From assembly GCA_019787685.1 (NCBI GenBank), contig JAHNUO010000002.1:1798001-1862000 (forward strand): a stretch of 64,000 nt of DNA. Direction: 5' to 3'. A model generated the notes under the pieces. It did no database searches, had not been told where the DNA came from, and saw nothing but the letters and a program-made list of their open reading frames with translations. Below are positions 11,949 to 20,247 of the stretch, one piece after another. This stretch comes from Chiua virens. Taxonomy: Eukaryota; Basidiomycota; Agaricomycetes; Boletales; Boletaceae. The translations under genes were made by a program, and so were the position numbers. Position 1 is the first letter of the stretch; every line of letters starts with the position of its first letter.

Positions 11949-13742
11949 CTACTCCTCTATCCAATCATCCTGTCTCACACGTCCAACATACCGCTTAACC
12001 CATGCCGGCCGCTGAGCATGTTGAGCCTGTAGTTGTTGTCTAGATGCACGACTCCGATGCTCTTCCTCACTTGGCACTTGTTCATCGTTTCTCACATCCA
12101 CATCCCGTTCAATGCTGTTCATTTCCGTACGTAGCCGACTTTCCCGCTGACGAAGGGCAACTCTTCTCCGGTTATACACCTCTGGGTGCAAGGTAACCAA
12201 GAGGAGAGAGAAGAAGGTCATCACTTTGCGAGTGAAAGTCGGTGGTTCAGGAACTATGGTGGATTGTTGCAGGGGCCACAGTAGTTTGTTCTCCGAATGG
12301 ACATTTGCAAGAGCGAGGCTATCCACGATCCCATTCGACTGCCTTGGTATTGGAGGTCCTTGCATTTGCTGAGCGTCACGGATGTGTTCGGCATTCGGAG
12401 TGCGAGCCGGTGATTGCTGAGGATTGCGATCTCCAGCATGGTCGTTGTCTCGACCAACGGGAGCAGCAGCTGGAGCAGCATCAGCGGCACCTCCAGCCTG
12501 CGCGCCATTCACTCCAACCCCCACCCCATTTTCGCCAGCCCTGTCACCCGGTCGTAGAATAACGATGCGGACATGGGTCCACATCTCGTAAATGATCCAC
12601 GCAATAAGACACAATCCAAGCAAGGGCTTGCGTGTCGGGGAAAAGAAATAGAGTAGGAGCACCGTTCGAAAAACGACCATCAACAACGGAGCGAGGAGCG
12701 CGCGCATGGGTATCTCTCTGATAACATTTCCTTCGGCTTGCTCCGGGTTGGCAGGTGCTCCGGCGGCATCCTGTTGAACGGTGATACCGACATTGGCATT
12801 CGGCACAGCTCGAAGGGGCGGAAGACCAAGCTCTTGGAGGAGATCGTTCACATGCGGAGGAACGGACTGGAGTGTTTGGATCCGACGAGGTAGGAGTGGG
12901 CAACGGTCTCGTTGATGGCGAAGAGAGGATAGAGAAGGTATAGGTGAGAACATGAAGAGCATGCAACTGCAAAGGAGAAGGAGCACCCCTGGGGGTTTGA
13001 AGGGATAGATATCGTTTTCCTCTACAAGCATAATTAGAACAAAAAGAGACATTAGGTGAAGCTTTCATACTCAATAATGGTAATTTTGTAGTCAAGGGGG
13101 TCGGTAGTGGGACTCGCCAACGGAGGGATAGCGTCCAAGACATCAGGCCAAAGATACCCCATCCGTTCGAGGGTAAGTCTTGCCTCACTCCGCTTGACAT
13201 CCATGTCTTCTAGTGGACTAGGAGCAGCCAGCCGAGAGCTGGAAAGCCAGGAGAGTGCCTGTGAGTGCTTGAAGTGAACGAATGCAAGACTACCATTCGA
13301 GTGCAAGGTAGTAGTAGGAGTAGCGAACGAATGTTGTTGGGATTCTGACAGAGGACTTTGTAGAGTTGGATAAGGCGCGGCATGCGAGGAAGGAGTCATT
13401 GTAGCATTGGCACTTGGTGGGTCACTCGTCCAAGCGGACGGTCGTACAGACAGATGGACAGTACGTTGATCATCCTGATGCTAGGCGGACAGCAAAGGTG
13501 AGTGCTTGAACGGGACACCCTTATACTCATCTTACCGGCCATAGTTCGCTGATTTTCTCCTGCTCGTCCAAGGAGCGACCTCTCCAAATCACACGCTGGC
13601 CGTCGGGTCGAGGATGCCCAATGCACACGGTGGATATGGCCTGTTTGACATCTAGCACAGTTGCACCTTCAAATACTTGGATGTCGAAAGAACTCGAATA
13701 CGCGGGCAACTCGACGCGAATGACCACAGTGGGGACGGACAT
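11949..13742 (-). CDS. Ubiquitin-like-domain membrane protein, HERP/USA1-like (ER-associated degradation)
   Basis: The N-terminus from ATG 13742 reads as a ubiquitin-like fold: VVIRVELPAYSSSFDIQVFE, ATVLDVKQAIS, then PRPDGQRVIWRGRSLDEQEK. A Ser/Pro linker exon follows. A C-terminal part of about 350 residues holds hydrophobic segments (VLLLLCSCMLFMFS, LLMVVFRTVLLLYFF, LLGLCLIAWIIYEMW), an Ala/Gly-rich spacer, a further helix (VMTFFSLLLVTLHP) and a basic cytosolic end. A ubiquitin-like domain followed by paired helices is the architecture of HERPUD1 and yeast Usa1, which scaffold the Hrd1 ligase in the ER membrane. The overall match is by layout more than by diagnostic residues. At least two introns are present. 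An in-frame ATG at 13769 is an alternative start. Confidence 0.65.
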
Positions 13743-13844
13743 GGTGACAAGCATGGACGATGGTAACAAGTTAACCCCACATTAACTTCTGTATACGTGG
13801 AGGTCACGTGATACTTACTTCAGATCAGTAGTAGGACTAGATTT

Positions 13845-15173
13845 CTATAGTAGAGAAATCTCCAGTGTACGTCCTTCCTTGGAGCTTTGGTATGCTAGCT
13901 CGATCATCTCTATGACCTGTGTAGTCTCTGCCCATTTAACCTCCAACTCCTTGTTCTCTCGGATAGCTTCAGCTAGGTTCTTGAACAATCCAATATATTG
14001 GCCTGGCGCTTCCGAAGGCCAGCTTGGATACAAATCAATACTAGTGTATTGAAGTAAGAAAGAATTTTCTTACATGGCTTTAGTAATGGTCTTGTCGTCT
14101 GCCGCGATGTTTTCAACCGTGCCATAGATTTCCTGGGGTTCCAGACCATAACCGGGCTCAAAGATACCTTGTACAGTGGGCATAGCCTTGAGCTGTTCTT
14201 CTTGCGTATCCAGGCCATACTTTGTAAACACTCCTCTGGTGCCACGGACAAGGTAACGTAGCTGTGGCGCCTTGGCAGACAGGATGTGCGAGCGAAGCAG
14301 CACAGTGAATGCATTGGGGAAAGGATGTCCAGCGTTGTAGTGCAAGTAAATCGTGAACTGTGGTTGCATATCCGTTAATACTTTTTCCATGAGATATAAC
14401 TAGTACGTACAATATCATCAACTTCAGGTTTTGTGACCCCTCGTATGTTCTGGATAAACGCAGTGATCTTGGCTGGTCGGCCGAAGAGATTTAATGCTTG
14501 ATCCAGAAGGTGCGATCCAAGATCATAAACAGCACCTGCACTGTCCTTCCAGGATGACCTGATGCCCTGGCGGTATCTATCATAGCTGGAATTCGTTGCT
14601 CATTACTGGTGATCTAATCATCGGGTGATCTGGCCTACTCACTGGGATTCAAACTCAAGCAGATTCCCAAGATATTGTGGAGACGAAGAAGGAAGCGCTA
14701 AGAGCTGTTTGAGCGCAATATGATCGGAGTCCCATCGCCTGTTCTGGTATCCGTACAAAATCAGACCCTTTGATTTTGCGATTGCGCCAAGCGCTTGGGC
14801 CTGCGTCACAGTTTCGGTGACCGGTTTATCGACAAGGACTATTGGGAAGTCAGGATATTTTGGAAATGGGAATGAGGATTCACTTGCCATGTTTTCCAGC
14901 TTCAAGGGCGGCCTTTGCTAAGGGATAGTGAGTGTCATTGGGAGTACCAACAATGACAAGTTCAATTTCTTGATCGTTAACGACCTCTTCGATGGTCCTG
15001 TATATCTTCATTTCAACGCCGAAACGTTCTTTGACTTTTCCCCCAGGAGACTGCGGGTTGCGTTCTAGCACGGCATAAAGGGTGAATAGCTCGGGAAGAG
15101 CAAGGACGAAGGGGACATGAAAGGTTAATCCTGCGAGGCCGACGCCGAGTACACAAGTCTTGATTGGTGCCAT
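13845..15173 (-). CDS. Gfo/Idh/MocA-family NAD(P)-dependent oxidoreductase
   Basis: Five or so exons encode about 370 residues. The N-terminal Rossmann fold reads KTCVLGVGLAGLTFHVPFV and ELVIVGTPNDTHYPLAKAAL. The family signature VLVDKPVTETVTQAQAL holds the conserved lysine of the E/D-K-P motif, and NRRWDSDHIALKQLL follows. The C-terminal alpha/beta domain contains GAVYDLGSHLLDQALNLFG with the conserved Asp and His, then GTRGVFTKYGLDTQEEQLK and a final EMIELAYQSSKEGRTLEI. This is a complete member of the family that oxidises sugars, inositol or other polyols. The pattern is typical of the fungal and bacterial YdgJ-like group, but the substrate is unknown. Its start codon is only about 190 bases from the transposon, so its promoter is probably affected by the insertion. 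Confidence 0.85.
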
Positions 15174-15361
15174 CGACAGACACTTGAGATACCTGAGATT
15201 GAAAACTTGAATCAAGGGAATATCTATGCCATACTACCATGCGGTCGTCGAGCTTATATAGACCACTTCACTGGCAGATGGTCATCGACGGGCCGCTCCA
15301 GGTATACAGCCACTGATCTGTCCGTCGTTTTGATTTGTTCCGATCCGGTCCGGTCGATCCG

Positions 15362-15570
15362 TTACTGTCCTTTTCAGGAAGGTTGGCACCGTGGGAATTT
15401 TAGTACAAAACTTCGCTCGCCCCTGGCCAACGAATAACTCCTCAATACCTGAATGGAACGCTTCGGTGACAACACCATTCGACTCGGAATGGGTGATAGA
15501 ATGTCTTCCAAGTGGTCCGATACCAGAAAATTAAGTTTTGAAATTTCGTGTTTTCCGGCCTTCGGCGTTG
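15362..15570 (+). repeat. Left terminal inverted repeat of the transposon
   Basis: Bases 15362-15402 match the reverse complement of 20207-20247 at every position. Matching islands continue to 15570, including the blocks GACAACACCA, GTGGTCCGA, GAAATTTCG and TCGGCGTTG in the same order. It starts with TTACTGTCC, of which TA is the likely target duplication. Confidence 0.88.
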
Positions 15571-15689
15571 TAGTGTGTAGTCACACTTTCAATTTCTCGG
15601 TACAATAGAATGATCAATCGATGTATATTGCGAACACAAACGACTAGACGTGATATGAGAAGCTTATACTGTAGATACTTGACTACTAG

Positions 15690-18068
15690 CTAAAGTTCGT
15701 CGGGTATAATTAATCTTCCTGCCTGTATAGCCTGTATGTCGCACTCTACACGCTGGAAAATAAAAATTGCTGTCCCGAGTTGGATCCCCAGCAGTTGCTG
15801 AAGCTTGGGGACCTCGATCCAGTTGGTTGAAATCTGGGAAATGTCAATAAACCCTTCGCTCTCCAATTTCAACCCCAATTCTACCCAATCAACACCGGGC
15901 GGAGACTTCTTCATGCGTTTCGCCGTAAATTTGAACCAGCTGGCAATGCCAGGGAGTGATAGCATAGGATCAATGGACTTGGTGTTTGACATGACATCTG
16001 CAGGATTGCTTTCAGAGCGGAATATGCTTGCATTAGAACTGCCAGTGGGAGTGTTGGTCGGTTGTGGAGATGGAGTACGGTATGGCAAGGTGCTGGGCGC
16101 AGGAGGACTGAGATTTGTCAGCTGTGGCAGTGGTGTGTATGTGACTGGTTGCGAGCTGGGCACATTCCACGGTGGAAAGACATTGATGACCGGCTGAGTA
16201 GCAGCATGCATGGAAGGATGTCCACATGCAATGTGAGCTGTGGCGGCGTGTTGAACTGTCTGATCAGGATCTGTGACAGAGCTGTCGCTGTTCATATTAC
16301 GTGTACGTGGCCGTGCTTGGTGAGTACGTATAGCATCTGGCTTTTCGTCAACTGTTGTCCTTTTGTCCATCTAATAATATATATGTTGTCAGGGAGGAAA
16401 ACGGAGGAAAACGGAAGACTTACAACTTCAAATGCCCAGTATGCGAGGTTGCTTTGAGTCAAGGGATAGCAAACATTGCTTTCGTTGTGGTGATAGCAGT
16501 ACACAGGCATTTTGGAGGCCTTTGAATGTGCGTCACACCTCCACCGTTCTTCAAGCAACTTTACAACCTCTTCTTGTTCAGCAAATCCCTGGATTTCTTC
16601 TGTGGACGGCTTCTGTTTGGACGATGATCTTGATCCAGAGGCTTTCGTGCCCTAAAAAGATGTGAGGAACATTAGGAAAAGTTGGCGTATTTGTGTACAT
16701 ACCAGTTTAGCGCTGTTGCGATCAGATGTGTCGATTGGCCCATCATTGTTCTCTGTGCTCGCATCTTCAAAGATAATCTGCACATTCTTCAAAGCTCGGG
16801 TAGATACCCGTCCACTTGGGAGGCGCTGGGGAACAATGAGTAGTCGCATTCTTTGCATGAACAATTTGAGTTCTTCGTCCGACTGAAGTGAAGTAAAGGC
16901 AGCCTTTGCCTTGTCAGAATCCAGACGATACTGGAGCTGCACTAGTCCTGGGAATCGATGGAGTTTCTGTGCGACAATCCTGCGGAGCTTGTCGAGAGTA
17001 ACAGAGGATGATATCTGGAAGGGAGCCAGGGATACTTTTCCTTGACCACGCTGAACGGCACATTGACATTGAATCTCGAATTCTAACACAAAAAAAAACG
17101 GTCAAAAGGAGCACCACAGATGAAGAGATGACTTACTGCACGTCGCAGGATCATCGGGGTCACTTTCAAGCTGTGCTGATGCCATGCTTTTGCCCATAGC
17201 TTTGGGAAGGCACTTCGGTGGCTTCATGCTCTGGCTACGCACGTAGAGCCCTTCCATGTCATCTTCTGAGTCCTCATCCTCGATCTGATCAATAGCCATC
17301 CCAAATAACTCTGCTTCATCTGGGCTCGCCGCTTCATCCTCGCTATGCGCCTCCATGTCTTCATCCGAAGCCATGACACCTACTTGCTTGCCAGTGATGA
17401 CGCTCAGGACCTCAGCTGTATCGGGAAGCTGGCTTGAGCCTCGAAACTGCCAGTGAGCAGCATTGAGATCATCGCTGGACTCGTCAAGTTCAGGAACGGC
17501 CTCAAGGGCACCAAAAGCTGGTGTGCAGACCCAAGGTTCTTCTTCAGAGGGTGAGTGACGTTGACGCTTGAGCACAGGCTGATGGATAGTAGGTTCTGTT
17601 GCTGTGGGGACTGCCTTCCGTTTACCTGCCAGTGCTTGTGAGGTCGATGCTGCAGTAGTCGCTTGGGGCTTAGATTGGAGAGCCTGGCCGCCCTGGCCGC
17701 TGGTAGCTTTGCTAGCATGACTAGTCATGACAGGCCTGCTTCTCACATTGCAGCTGGATCCTAGTACTAAGGGTGCAGGTGGTGCACTCTGACTGCGCGA
17801 ACGAGTACCAGTAGTAGAACTCTCTTCGAAGATGCACGGCAAGGATTTCTTGGCACATAGACTGCACAGAGTGGAGCCCTCCTCGATAACACAGGCTGTC
17901 TTGCGTGCATGACAGTTTGTGCACGCCCGCTTTCCTGGTAGTGCCACAAGTCAGTGGCAACTCGGAGGTTGTCGTTTGAATTCTAACCCTACCTTTCTTG
18001 ACAGCCACGTGTTCTACAGCCTCTACAGTAGGTAAAGGGTTGGTCTTCTTGTGTTTTCTAGGGGACAT
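15690..18068 (-). CDS. Transposon-borne Zn2Cys6 protein with PB1/ubiquitin-like, Cys/His and SAM-like regions
   Basis: Starting at ATG 18068, the spliced protein has about 690 residues. After MSPRKHKKTNPLPT and one intron comes KRACTNCHARKTAC, eight residues, then CSLCAKKSLPC. This is an exact fungal Zn2Cys6 pattern (C-x2-C-x6-C-x8-C-x2-C-x6-C). A long acidic Ser/Pro-rich middle follows. Next is a region of about 120 residues starting FEIQCQCAVQRGQG that looks like a ubiquitin/PB1-type fold. A Cys/His segment (WRCDAHSK, then YCYHHNES and CYPLTQSNLAYWAF) is next. The C-terminus (IASWFKFTAKR to QLLGIQLGTAIFIFQ) resembles a SAM-like helical domain. Such domains recur in large agaricomycete gene families, but I cannot name this one. 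All joins keep the frame. It lies inside the inverted repeats, in the same orientation as the transposase, and may be an accessory or regulatory protein of the element. Confidence 0.8.
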
Positions 18069-18767
18069 TGAGAGACAGGCGAACAGTGAAGCTCAAGCCC
18101 AGGTCGTGAAGAAATGCTGTGTCAAATTTATCGTCAAATACACGTTGTCGCTTCGCTTGCAGTCGCAGTCACAATGACAAAATCAAGTGATCAAGCAGTT
18201 CTCTTAGCCGACTTTTGTCAAGACTCTCACTGGAAAGACCAAGATTCAGGACGAGGGAGGCATCCCTCCCGACCAACAACGTCTATGCTCCATTTTGGTA
18301 TGTTGATCACTCAGATTTACTACGTCTGTTTTGATTCACTCCAAACTTGAAGTCCTTCATCTCCGTGGTGGTATGCAAATCTTTGTCAAGATCCTAGGTA
18401 AGATTATCACTGGTGTTTCACAGTTTCACCGTGAAGCTGCCCCACTTCATAGCATATGCTCTCCACAGGCCCGGGACCAAGCCCCACTCTTTCATTTGGA
18501 ATTGTTTCCGGAGTATCCCCTTGTTCCAATTCCACTGCGAAGTTGCCCCATTTCATAGCCTACACTTTTCACAGGACTGAGCGTCACTCTTAGTGTATCA
18601 TTCGTGCCATGTACTATAATTTCTATCTCAATTTTCAATGCACCACGCATTTTCACCTTATATTTTGCGGGAAGCAAGCAATGCAGCCACATTCAAACAC
18701 GACGCTGGCACCAATGATGAGGACAATGGGTTGTTGTGCATACAAGACGAATACAAAGACAGTAGTA
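18069..18767. other. Intergenic segment between the two transposon genes
   Basis: About 700 bases lie between the start of the Zn2Cys6 gene and the stop of the transposase gene. It should contain the promoter of the former and the 3' end of the latter. Apart from one direct repeat (18429-18468 and 18536-18575) I see no coding exon. Confidence 0.6.
18429..18575 (+). repeat. Pair of imperfect 40-base direct repeats inside the transposon
   Basis: Two copies, starting near 18429 and 18536, share the order GAAG-TGCCCCA-TTCATAGC, then CACAGG about 15 bases later. Their period is about 107 bases. They may be subterminal or promoter binding sites of the element. The function is not shown by the sequence. 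Confidence 0.6.
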
Positions 18768-19976
18768 TTAGATGTATCCACAATGAGAGAACCAGCCATA
18801 CGAATCCTGAGGAGTGATATCATGTAGCGCCCTAAGCAATGTAATATATACCTCCCGATCACTCATCCTCGTCATTGCCATCCGTATATAGTCACCATTC
18901 CTACGGAGGTGATACTTCATTGCCGAGAAAGCAAGCTCGATTGGATTCAGGTCAGGGGAATACGGTGGTAAGAATTCACACCGCATTCCTCTACAAAGAT
19001 AGTCAGTCCGTAAATCAAATAATGAAACAGAGCCATGGCATACCTTGAGTGAATGAGATTCTGGATATCGGGATGCTTGTGAATCCGGCAGTTGTCCATT
19101 ACGATCACAGAGTTCGCGGCGGGAAATGGTTGCATGTGATCGAGAAGTTGCATAACAAATCGCGTAAAGTTTTCAGTACAGAATGATCCTTCAACGATGC
19201 TGCAGTGTAGGATACCATCCTGGAGTGAAAGCGCAGGGAGAACTGAGAATCTGTATAATAGTCGGTATTGATTGTACTGTACCATCAAATCACTTACCTT
19301 CGACCGCGTACAAAAAATGCCTTGCGCTGTGCCTTGGTTCCTCTAATTGACCATGCACGGCCACGATATGTGGTTCGACGGTCAACAGAACTCTCGTCGA
19401 CAAAGACAAGCTGCTCAGCTGTATATTTTCCAATGCGAGTATGGTAATCAAGCCGCTTTTCAGCAGACCGCTCTGCTGCAACACGTGTAATCTGAACGAA
19501 TGCAGCAACGATCAATACATTGAATCATGTACTATACACGAACCTACCTTTTTCATTGTGAAACCTGCGTTTTGCAGTGTTCTCCATATGGTTGCACACG
19601 AAACCTGAACACCAGAGGATGCAGCTAGCATTTCCCGAAGCTCATCTAGATAAACATCTGGCATTTTCTCCACCGTACCCAAAAGAAACTGCAATGGTAA
19701 ATTCAATTCGCGATACTGTACGGACAACATGGTACATACCTCAACATCTACATCGCGAAGATGCCGATTTCTCACTTTCTCATGGGCCTCAGGCTTTTGG
19801 TCTGAGTCTTTGCCCGGGTTGGGAACAGATCCATGCACACGAAAATGAGTCATTACCCGATGGATGGATCGAACTGACACATCTAAGCTTGCACCAATTT
19901 GTTCATAAGTGAGGAGTTTAGAGAGGCGCACAATGCCCCACTGAATCTCGGGGCTTGATTGCTGACCGTGTGGCAT
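18768..19976 (-). CDS. Tc1-type DD34E transposase
   Basis: Five exons keep one frame from ATG 19976 (MPHGQQSSPEIQWGI) to the stop at 18768, about 335 residues. The N-terminus is a helix-turn-helix region (YEQIGASLDVSVRSIHRVM), then CATIWRTLQNAGFTMKK. The catalytic DDE domain shows the first Asp in VFVDESSVDRRTTYRGRAW, the second in VIVMDNCRIHKHPDI and the Glu in PPYSPDLNPIELAF. Exactly 34 residues separate the second Asp from the Glu, the Tc1 spacing, and this fits the TA target duplication. The introns lie at about 19692-19741, 19497-19551, 19254-19304 and 18989-19044. No stop or frameshift breaks the gene, so the enzyme could be active. It should cut and join DNA at the element's inverted repeats. 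Confidence 0.9.
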
Positions 19977-20037
19977 CACTGCGACACCGTTTTGAATGTC
20001 AGAACAGCATACAGAGTATAAAAACTTACCAGGCTCG

Positions 20038-20247
20038 CAACGCCGAGGCCCCGAAATACCGAAATTTCGAAATGTCGTTTTCTCCCTTCGGACCACCTGA
20101 AATCTCTTCTCCCAAGTATTCCAAGTCAAGTGGTGTTGTCTCCGAAAGATTCTGAGTAACCGTTGAGGAGATAAAGGCGACCGAAAGTGAGACATGTTTT
20201 TAGAAGTAAAATTCCCACGGTGCCAACCTTCCTGAAAAGGACAGTAA
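20038..20247 (-). repeat. Right terminal inverted repeat of the transposon
   Basis: This is the inverted partner of 15362-15570. It forms the leader region upstream of the transposase start codon. The transposase frame happens to stay open through it, which gives a misleading upstream ATG at 20252. Confidence 0.88.

Follow-up and report, generated by a model that had tools for sequence, protein, structure and literature searches.

The window analysed here, a 64,000-nucleotide stretch of contig JAHNUO010000002.1 (C2 below) from the 48.3 Mb genome of the bolete Chiua virens, contains a two-gene element of the Tc1/mariner type that spans 4.9 kb (4,886 bp) at positions 15362-20247 and carries both genes on the minus strand (Table 1). 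An initial annotation had described inverted repeats of about 210 bp with 41 identical terminal bases, bracketing an intact DD34E transposase gene and an intact, spliced Zn2Cys6 gene in the same orientation, with both ends abutting TA; our analysis agrees on each of these points, and its coordinates proved exact to the single base. The outermost 41 bases of the two ends are exactly identical, and the long inverted repeats align over approximately 210 bp, where 153 of the 205 aligned positions match; the local score is 177, whereas 155 random pairs of 700-bp window pieces reached 54 at most. TA is found at 15363-15364 and 20245-20246; T15362 and A20247 are the outermost bases of a TTAA target, so that the element proper extends from 15365 to 20244.

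The transposase gene, in its 333-residue reading with four introns, contains no internal stop; an alternative upstream ATG at 20195, combined with a fifth intron (20029-19979), would add 56 residues, mostly within the repeat. Its catalytic residues are spaced by 84 (D-D) and 34 (D-E) positions, and the product matches the Pfam family DDE_3 with an E value of 2.1e-28. Two helix-turn-helix families, HTH_Tnp_Tc3_2 (E=7.3e-6) and HTH_33 (E=6.2e-5), are also matched, each below its curated Pfam cut-off. Relatives reach 53-71% identity in Amanita and up to 74% elsewhere, among the 120 of 460 matches listed. The second gene encodes a 720-residue protein whose cysteine cluster matches Pfam Zn_clus above the cut-off (E=1.8e-5). 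Zn2Cys6 clusters are characterized by the spacing C-x2-C-x6-C-x5-12-C-x2-C-x6-8-C. The PB1 fold was recognized by structure comparison, an identification that depends on a second structure aligner, as Foldseek alone yielded no PDB match at E <= 0.001. The middle domain of fungal transcription factors is absent from the Pfam results for the protein at E values up to 1.

Table 1. Features of the element in the window and paired-end copies of its family in the Chiua virens genome.
Feature	Position or length	Strand	Content or basis
Whole insertion, TTA...TAA, TA duplicated, TTAA target	15362..20247	-	target rule from sister copies
Terminal inverted repeat, Zn2Cys6-gene end; outer 41 bases match other end	15362..15570	+	repeat alignment
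Conserved inner block, ACCATTCGACTCGG, lying 112 bases inside the end	15474..15487	+	end alignment
Zn2Cys6-PB1-SAM-like protein, 720 residues	15690..18068	-	introns 17992-17935, 17136-17083, 16702-16652, 16423-16371
C-terminal five-helix SAM-like domain, residues ~633-713	15714..15956	-	weak assignment
Conserved C/H-rich domain, no family assigned, residues ~435-497	16362..16603	-	spans intron 16423-16371
PB1-fold domain, residues ~294-400	16757..17077	-	Pfam PB1 below cut-off only
Zn2Cys6 cluster, residues 30-59, C-x2-C-x6-C-x8-C-x2-C-x6-C	17834..17923	-	Pfam and spacing
DD34E transposase, 333 residues from ATG 19976	18768..19976	-	introns 19739-19689, 19547-19492, 19297-19251, 19043-18991
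Terminal inverted repeat, transposase end	20038..20247	-	repeat alignment
Inner block, opposite repeat; ACCACTTGACTTGG with 2 mismatches, lying 113 bases inside the end	20121..20134	-	end alignment
Paired copy C1	29.9 kb		both genes, extra DNA inserted; part inferred from coordinates
Paired copy C2 (window)	4,886 bp		both genes intact
Paired copy C6	8.1 kb		both genes, extra DNA inserted; part inferred from coordinates
Paired copy C7	C7:935621-936046, 426 bp		no gene; sole short paired copy found
Paired copy C16	4,453 bp		both genes
Paired copy C25	C25:324628-329094, 4,467 bp		both genes intact
Paired copy C45	11.3 kb		both genes, extra DNA inserted

Further copies were sought in the genome with a pattern for the outer 15 bases of the ends, which are of the TTACTGTC type; the pattern hit 23 places, against 2 with a reversed control, and facing ends were paired by hand. 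Seven paired-end copies were obtained, six of them holding both genes, one neither and none the transposase alone. The initial annotation had asked whether full-length copies always carry both genes; all six transposase-bearing paired copies do, the second gene being either intact or damaged. Neither gene of the window or C25 copy contains an internal stop, and each gene of the C45, C6, C16 and C1 copies is interrupted by one or more premature stops. A second full copy of the window element shows 96-98% identity; together with the empty sites described below, it rules out an artefact of assembly or of a single locus. Nine ends remained unpaired, among them that at C23, which has a transposase remnant. 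At C14 there are remains of both genes, the far end not being found, and the single ends at C5, C8, C9:1170k, C11 (which looks like a chance match) and C13 revealed no transposase or Zn2Cys6 gene at E <= 0.01 in the 1.9-2.0 kb read at each; the unpaired ends at C9:1935470 and C83:18019 lie outside this gene-content count.

The association of the two genes was also assessed from each gene separately. The 67 transposase matches in the genome were grouped by hand into 26 loci, of which nine (C2, C45, C25, C6, C16, C1, C14, C12:1022k and C23) are nearest to the window and C25 transposases, with mean identities of 43-86% over the matched pieces when the window itself is excluded. The Zn2Cys6 gene or its remains lie downstream and in the same orientation at eight of these nine. 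Among the other 17, C64, C65 and C36 have a distant partner, and no match to the Zn2Cys6 protein family was found near the remaining 14 in searches at E <= 0.1 that scored the best candidates only. These searches for the second protein identified 11 loci in the genome, with the split C1 and C6 genes counted once each. Ten adjoin a transposase, C64 and C65 among them as weak matches (E 0.04-0.08), and the eleventh, C12:969k, has an adjacent 36-residue transposase fragment in opposite orientation. All 11 loci therefore place homologues beside transposases or their fragments, where the initial annotation had proposed to look for them, and among the best candidates scored no family member was detected away from them.

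The copies in the window and on C25 represent two subfamilies, between which the transposases are identical at 222 of 328 positions (68%) and the Zn2Cys6 proteins at 239 of 660 (36%). Both subfamilies have the same gene order, the same orientation and the same phases at all eight introns, four per gene. Seven of these introns lie at the same aligned residue, and the first intron of the Zn2Cys6 gene, although of the same phase (1), is offset by six aligned residues within a poorly conserved leader. As judged from this shared structure, the pairing of the genes is older than the subfamily split. With every Zn2Cys6-family locus adjoining a transposase or fragment, and the pair kept during divergence, the second gene looks like an integral gene of the element rather than a chance passenger; chance capture is ruled out by the absence of stand-alone copies among the best candidates scored, the old pairing and the six paired copies. 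In both subfamilies the first Zn2Cys6 intron (window 17935-17992; C25:326396-326443) lies a few residues ahead of the zinc cluster, as though the exon with the cluster had become attached to a short basic leader.

Selection on the two genes was evaluated through the ratio of nonsynonymous to synonymous substitution rates (dN/dS), counting changes on projected codons in four pairs of copies, with fewer codons available for the transposase. For the Zn2Cys6 gene the ratios were 0.378 for C2-C45 (p 2.2e-4), 0.611 for C25-C16 (p 0.012), 0.484 for C25-C1 (p 4.7e-4) and 0.465 for C25-C6 (p 0.11); the corresponding values for the transposase were 1.271 (p 0.82), 0.682 (p 0.23), 0.433 (p 0.0051) and 0.381 (p 0.098). 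Purifying selection is therefore significant in three of four pairs for the Zn2Cys6 gene and in one of four for the transposase, although the pairs are not independent, since C25 takes part in three of them. This substitution pattern shows purifying selection on the Zn2Cys6 gene.

Evidence of mobility was obtained by matching the joined flanks of insertions against the genome. Empty sites were recovered for C45 (on C3 at 89%, and on C4 at 94% across the initial 213 bases, which include the junction), for C16 (91%) and for C25 (C22:186505-186806, 99% over 303 bp, with a 1-bp indel in 124 columns aligned). An empty site, which the initial annotation had proposed as a check, hence exists for three sister insertions, but the joined-flank search found none for the insertion in the window. 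The 99% identity of its allele-like empty site indicates that the C25 insertion is recent. The four empty sequences read TTAA, and the occupied sites TTA-element-TAA. At all 14 ends for which the search left the preceding base free, TA follows a T, and all five copies with both flanks read would give TTAA, compared with 99 of 2,768 TA steps in the window. From the comparison of empty and occupied sites and the T preceding TA, we conclude that the element duplicates TA and selects TTAA. A TTAA duplication of the piggyBac type was excluded, because the occupied sites read TTA...TAA and only TA is duplicated. TA duplication is the superfamily rule for Tc1/mariner (PMC8533490). On the basis of its transposase, repeats and TA duplication, the element is best classified as a Tc1/mariner member, of which it is a two-gene variant: the terminal inverted repeats are those expected of the superfamily, and the single-gene layout of about 1.3 kb, typical of Tc1 but not defining, is departed from. 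As a separate observation, the allele-like pair formed by C25 and C22 suggests that both haplotypes may be present in parts of the assembly, in which case insertion polymorphism could be read genome-wide.

Alignment of 14 ends outlines a conserved outer region of about 36 bases and an inner ACCATTCGACTYGG-like block at constant spacing. At 111-116 bases from the end, the inner block is present with up to three mismatches in 14 of 19 ends and with up to five in 16 of 19, the exceptions being the C16TP, C5 and C11 ends; among random 75-bp stretches, 35 of 4,572 contain it with up to three mismatches. Long-repeat Tc1 elements have a second transposase site inside their repeats. The inner block may accordingly be either a second transposase site or the site of the partner protein.

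Tc1/mariner is the standard example of a transposon needing only one protein. The initial annotation had stated that such elements normally have one gene, which fits typical Tc1 elements but needs qualification for the superfamily at large, as multi-gene members are documented in ciliates (PMC7325037, PMC4724952) and the ciliate TBE and Tec elements carry three open reading frames (ORFs) (PMC7325037). Like the present element, TBE (Oxytricha) and Tec (Euplotes) have a DD34E transposase between inverted repeats together with extra ORFs. Their repeats measure approximately 80 bp in TBE and 700 bp in Tec, compared with about 210 bp here, and one of their three ORFs is reversed, whereas our two genes share one strand. 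They are ciliate elements with a different partner protein, and the available text of these accounts mentions no partner with Zn2Cys6, PB1 or SAM domains. Among other superfamilies, PIF/Harbinger, ISL2EU and other PHIS elements pair a gene for a DDE transposase with a second gene for a DNA-binding protein (Myb/SANT or YqaJ) and, like the present family, have miniature inverted-repeat transposable element derivatives (PMC4482050, PMC2836001). PIF/Harbinger differs in its transposase superfamily, its target duplications (e.g. TWA) and its Myb/SANT partner, as opposed to Tc1-type, TA and Zn2Cys6 here. The Tc1/mariner elements of the fungus Sclerotinia sclerotiorum likewise have a transposase between inverted repeats, but are 1.8-2.3 kb long with repeats of 36-70 bp (PMC4188875); the main text of that report uses neither 'two ORFs' nor 'second ORF' nor 'accessory'. 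In the open-access literature, as far as its available text goes and with Repbase and subscription papers outside the scope, we found no fungal Tc1/mariner element with a Zn2Cys6 partner, which is an absence from the literature and not proof of novelty.

Our preferred reading, to which we assign a probability of roughly 0.6 and which as a whole best explains the data, is that the second protein is an element-specific, DNA-binding and multimerizing partner that regulates transcription, pairs the ends, or both. The element is a cut-and-paste transposon that normally carries two genes: the sequences show transposase and Zn2Cys6 protein as one unit between long inverted repeats, a pair whose members diverged jointly within the family. 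The second protein would be made for the element. It would be nuclear, bind DNA through its Zn2Cys6 cluster and multimerize through its PB1 and SAM-like domains, and its likeliest binding sites would lie inside the element's own ends, with the block about 112 bases in as one candidate. PB1 and SAM folds often self-associate, and their combination with a DNA-binding cluster points to a factor acting at those ends. There it might raise and time transcription from the end serving as transposase promoter, help to unite the ends, or do both. Since the transposase appears to have a helix-turn-helix of its own, such a partner would more probably be a regulator or assembly factor than the sole recognizer of the ends. 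A fungal lineage with a selected, probably self-associating second DNA-binding protein would make it testable why a one-protein machine takes a partner, with transcription control, end pairing and escape from silencing as candidate roles.

The second protein might instead be an obligate cofactor of transposition, like ORF1 of PIF/Harbinger, leaving the transposase inactive on the ends without its partner. Stable pairing, purifying selection, the PB1 fold and the possible SAM fold all fit such a cofactor, and both element-encoded proteins are required in PIF/Harbinger (PMC2836001). We nonetheless consider it somewhat unlikely, as PIF/Harbinger transposases are described as having no obvious DNA-binding domain (PMC2836001), whereas the Tc3-like helix-turn-helix match of our transposase, albeit below the cut-off, argues against a strict division of labour of that kind, in which DNA binding comes from the partner; moreover, ISY100, a related superfamily member, excises with its transposase alone (PMC2170065). 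Alternatively, the protein could counter host silencing of the element and not act in transposition. The family profile matches two Zn2Cys6 subunits of a chromatin-remodelling complex, RSC3 (E 3.5e-4, profile positions 17-177) and RSC30 (E 0.021, positions 17-199), in the zinc cluster and the stretch behind it, and rapid divergence would fit a conflict with the host. HAP1, LEU3 and PUT3 come next among the hits, however, so these matches were likely driven by the widely shared cluster, and this role appears improbable; all five proteins have the cluster in common with ours, in which PB1-fold, C/H-rich and SAM-like domains then follow. Zn2Cys6 proteins being typical fungal regulators, a host transcription factor might also have been captured a single time, to travel as cargo with beneficial or manipulative effects on the host, and the faster divergence of the Zn2Cys6 protein relative to the transposase (36% versus 68% identity) speaks for cargo. 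Against it stand the lack, among the best candidates scored, of any Chiua family member away from a transposase or fragment, a pairing that predates the subfamily split, and retention in all six transposase-bearing paired copies, which make cargo highly improbable. Where the initial annotation weighed an accessory or regulatory factor against a captured host gene, the copy and family searches thus favour the former and not the latter.

Several further observations weigh against a selected partner acting at the ends. The lower dN/dS ratio belongs to the Zn2Cys6 gene in two pairs and to the transposase in two, neither gene reaches significance in C25-C6, and the C2-C45 transposases, with 5 synonymous and 22 nonsynonymous changes, display no purifying selection, their ratio suggesting that at least one line may be decaying. 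At C23 a transposase remnant has no Zn2Cys6 gene within the 3.3 kb read, and the end pattern misses copies with altered outer bases. The inner-block motif was derived from the same ends that were scored, many of them closely related, which leaves its fixed distance across subfamilies as the stronger point, and a second transposase site would account for the block equally well. Classic CGG-type paired half-sites, when searched for, showed no concentration within the repeats. The SAM-like assignment of the C-terminal five-helix domain is weak, and outside Chiua the pairing of the genes is putative.

Relatives of the second protein in other species were sought in a large protein database, scoring the best ~8,000 candidates by common words. 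An initial search provided P0002 from Boletus coccyginus, and a profile search returned 14 family proteins, two of which are the Chiua copies and the others of which include proteins from Boletus, Pisolithus and Amanita, the Amanita match being short and covering the PB1 region only. Family genes occur in Boletus edulis, B. coccyginus, B. reticuloceps, Pisolithus marmoratus and P. microcarpus (P0125-P0128, P0130, P0131 and P0002). The Zn2Cys6 spacing is kept in nine of nine family sequences scanned, of which P0123 and our C25 model are one and the same protein, and, besides the window protein and our C25 model, the cluster is kept in all seven sequences scanned with their N-terminal part; Pfam Zn_clus falls below the cut-off for P0124 and P0002 and is silent for P0127. 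In IMG/VR, 27 pattern matches to the protein were found, and no relative was confirmed among them. Public bolete gene sets list the second gene as 'hypothetical protein', with P0130 given as 'Zn(2)-C6 fungal-type domain', so that transposon genes may be among those tallied as mushroom regulators. For the C25 copy the NCBI model (P0123, JVU11DRAFT_11094) is identical to our splice in every letter, and that of the window copy (P0001, JVU11DRAFT_1819) is an exact suffix of our 720-residue model; it starts 212 residues later, so that the Zn2Cys6 cluster is missing from the public model.

A distant two-gene Tc1-type element of 2.93 kb lies at C64:13238-16167, with 58-bp repeats that are 96.6% identical; C65 and C36 are 94-97% identical to its aligned part. 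Its transposase shares approximately 33-39% identity with those of the window and C25, and its partner gene is convergent, running towards the transposase from the far end. A piece of this partner matches the family C/H-rich domain (hhalign E 2.3e-5, probability 76), and for its PB1-like stretch hhalign found no match to the profile of the family (probability 0.2). No Zn2Cys6 pattern was found in the six frames of the C64 element, although the same pattern detects the C25 cluster. The comparison is suggestive only of a related second architecture. It is conceivable, though in our view rather unlikely, that mushroom-forming fungi harbour a whole branch of two-component Tc1/mariner elements, including the C64/C65/C36 lineage, in which the Zn2Cys6-PB1-SAM protein is required for transposition. 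If so, Tc1/mariner would have evolved two-protein transposition separately from PIF/Harbinger, and the partner would have gained or lost its DNA-binding part.

The insertion in the window is flanked by a GFO/IDH/MocA-type gene on one side and a glycoside hydrolase family 9 gene on the other. The C45 copy contains four nested insertions, at C45:10751-11434, 12262-12889, 13028-13757 and 14549-18889. Two of these (684 and 730 bp, with ends near GTTACGAT) belong to one family and lie in opposite orientations, and the largest, of 4.3 kb, has CCGG at both edges.

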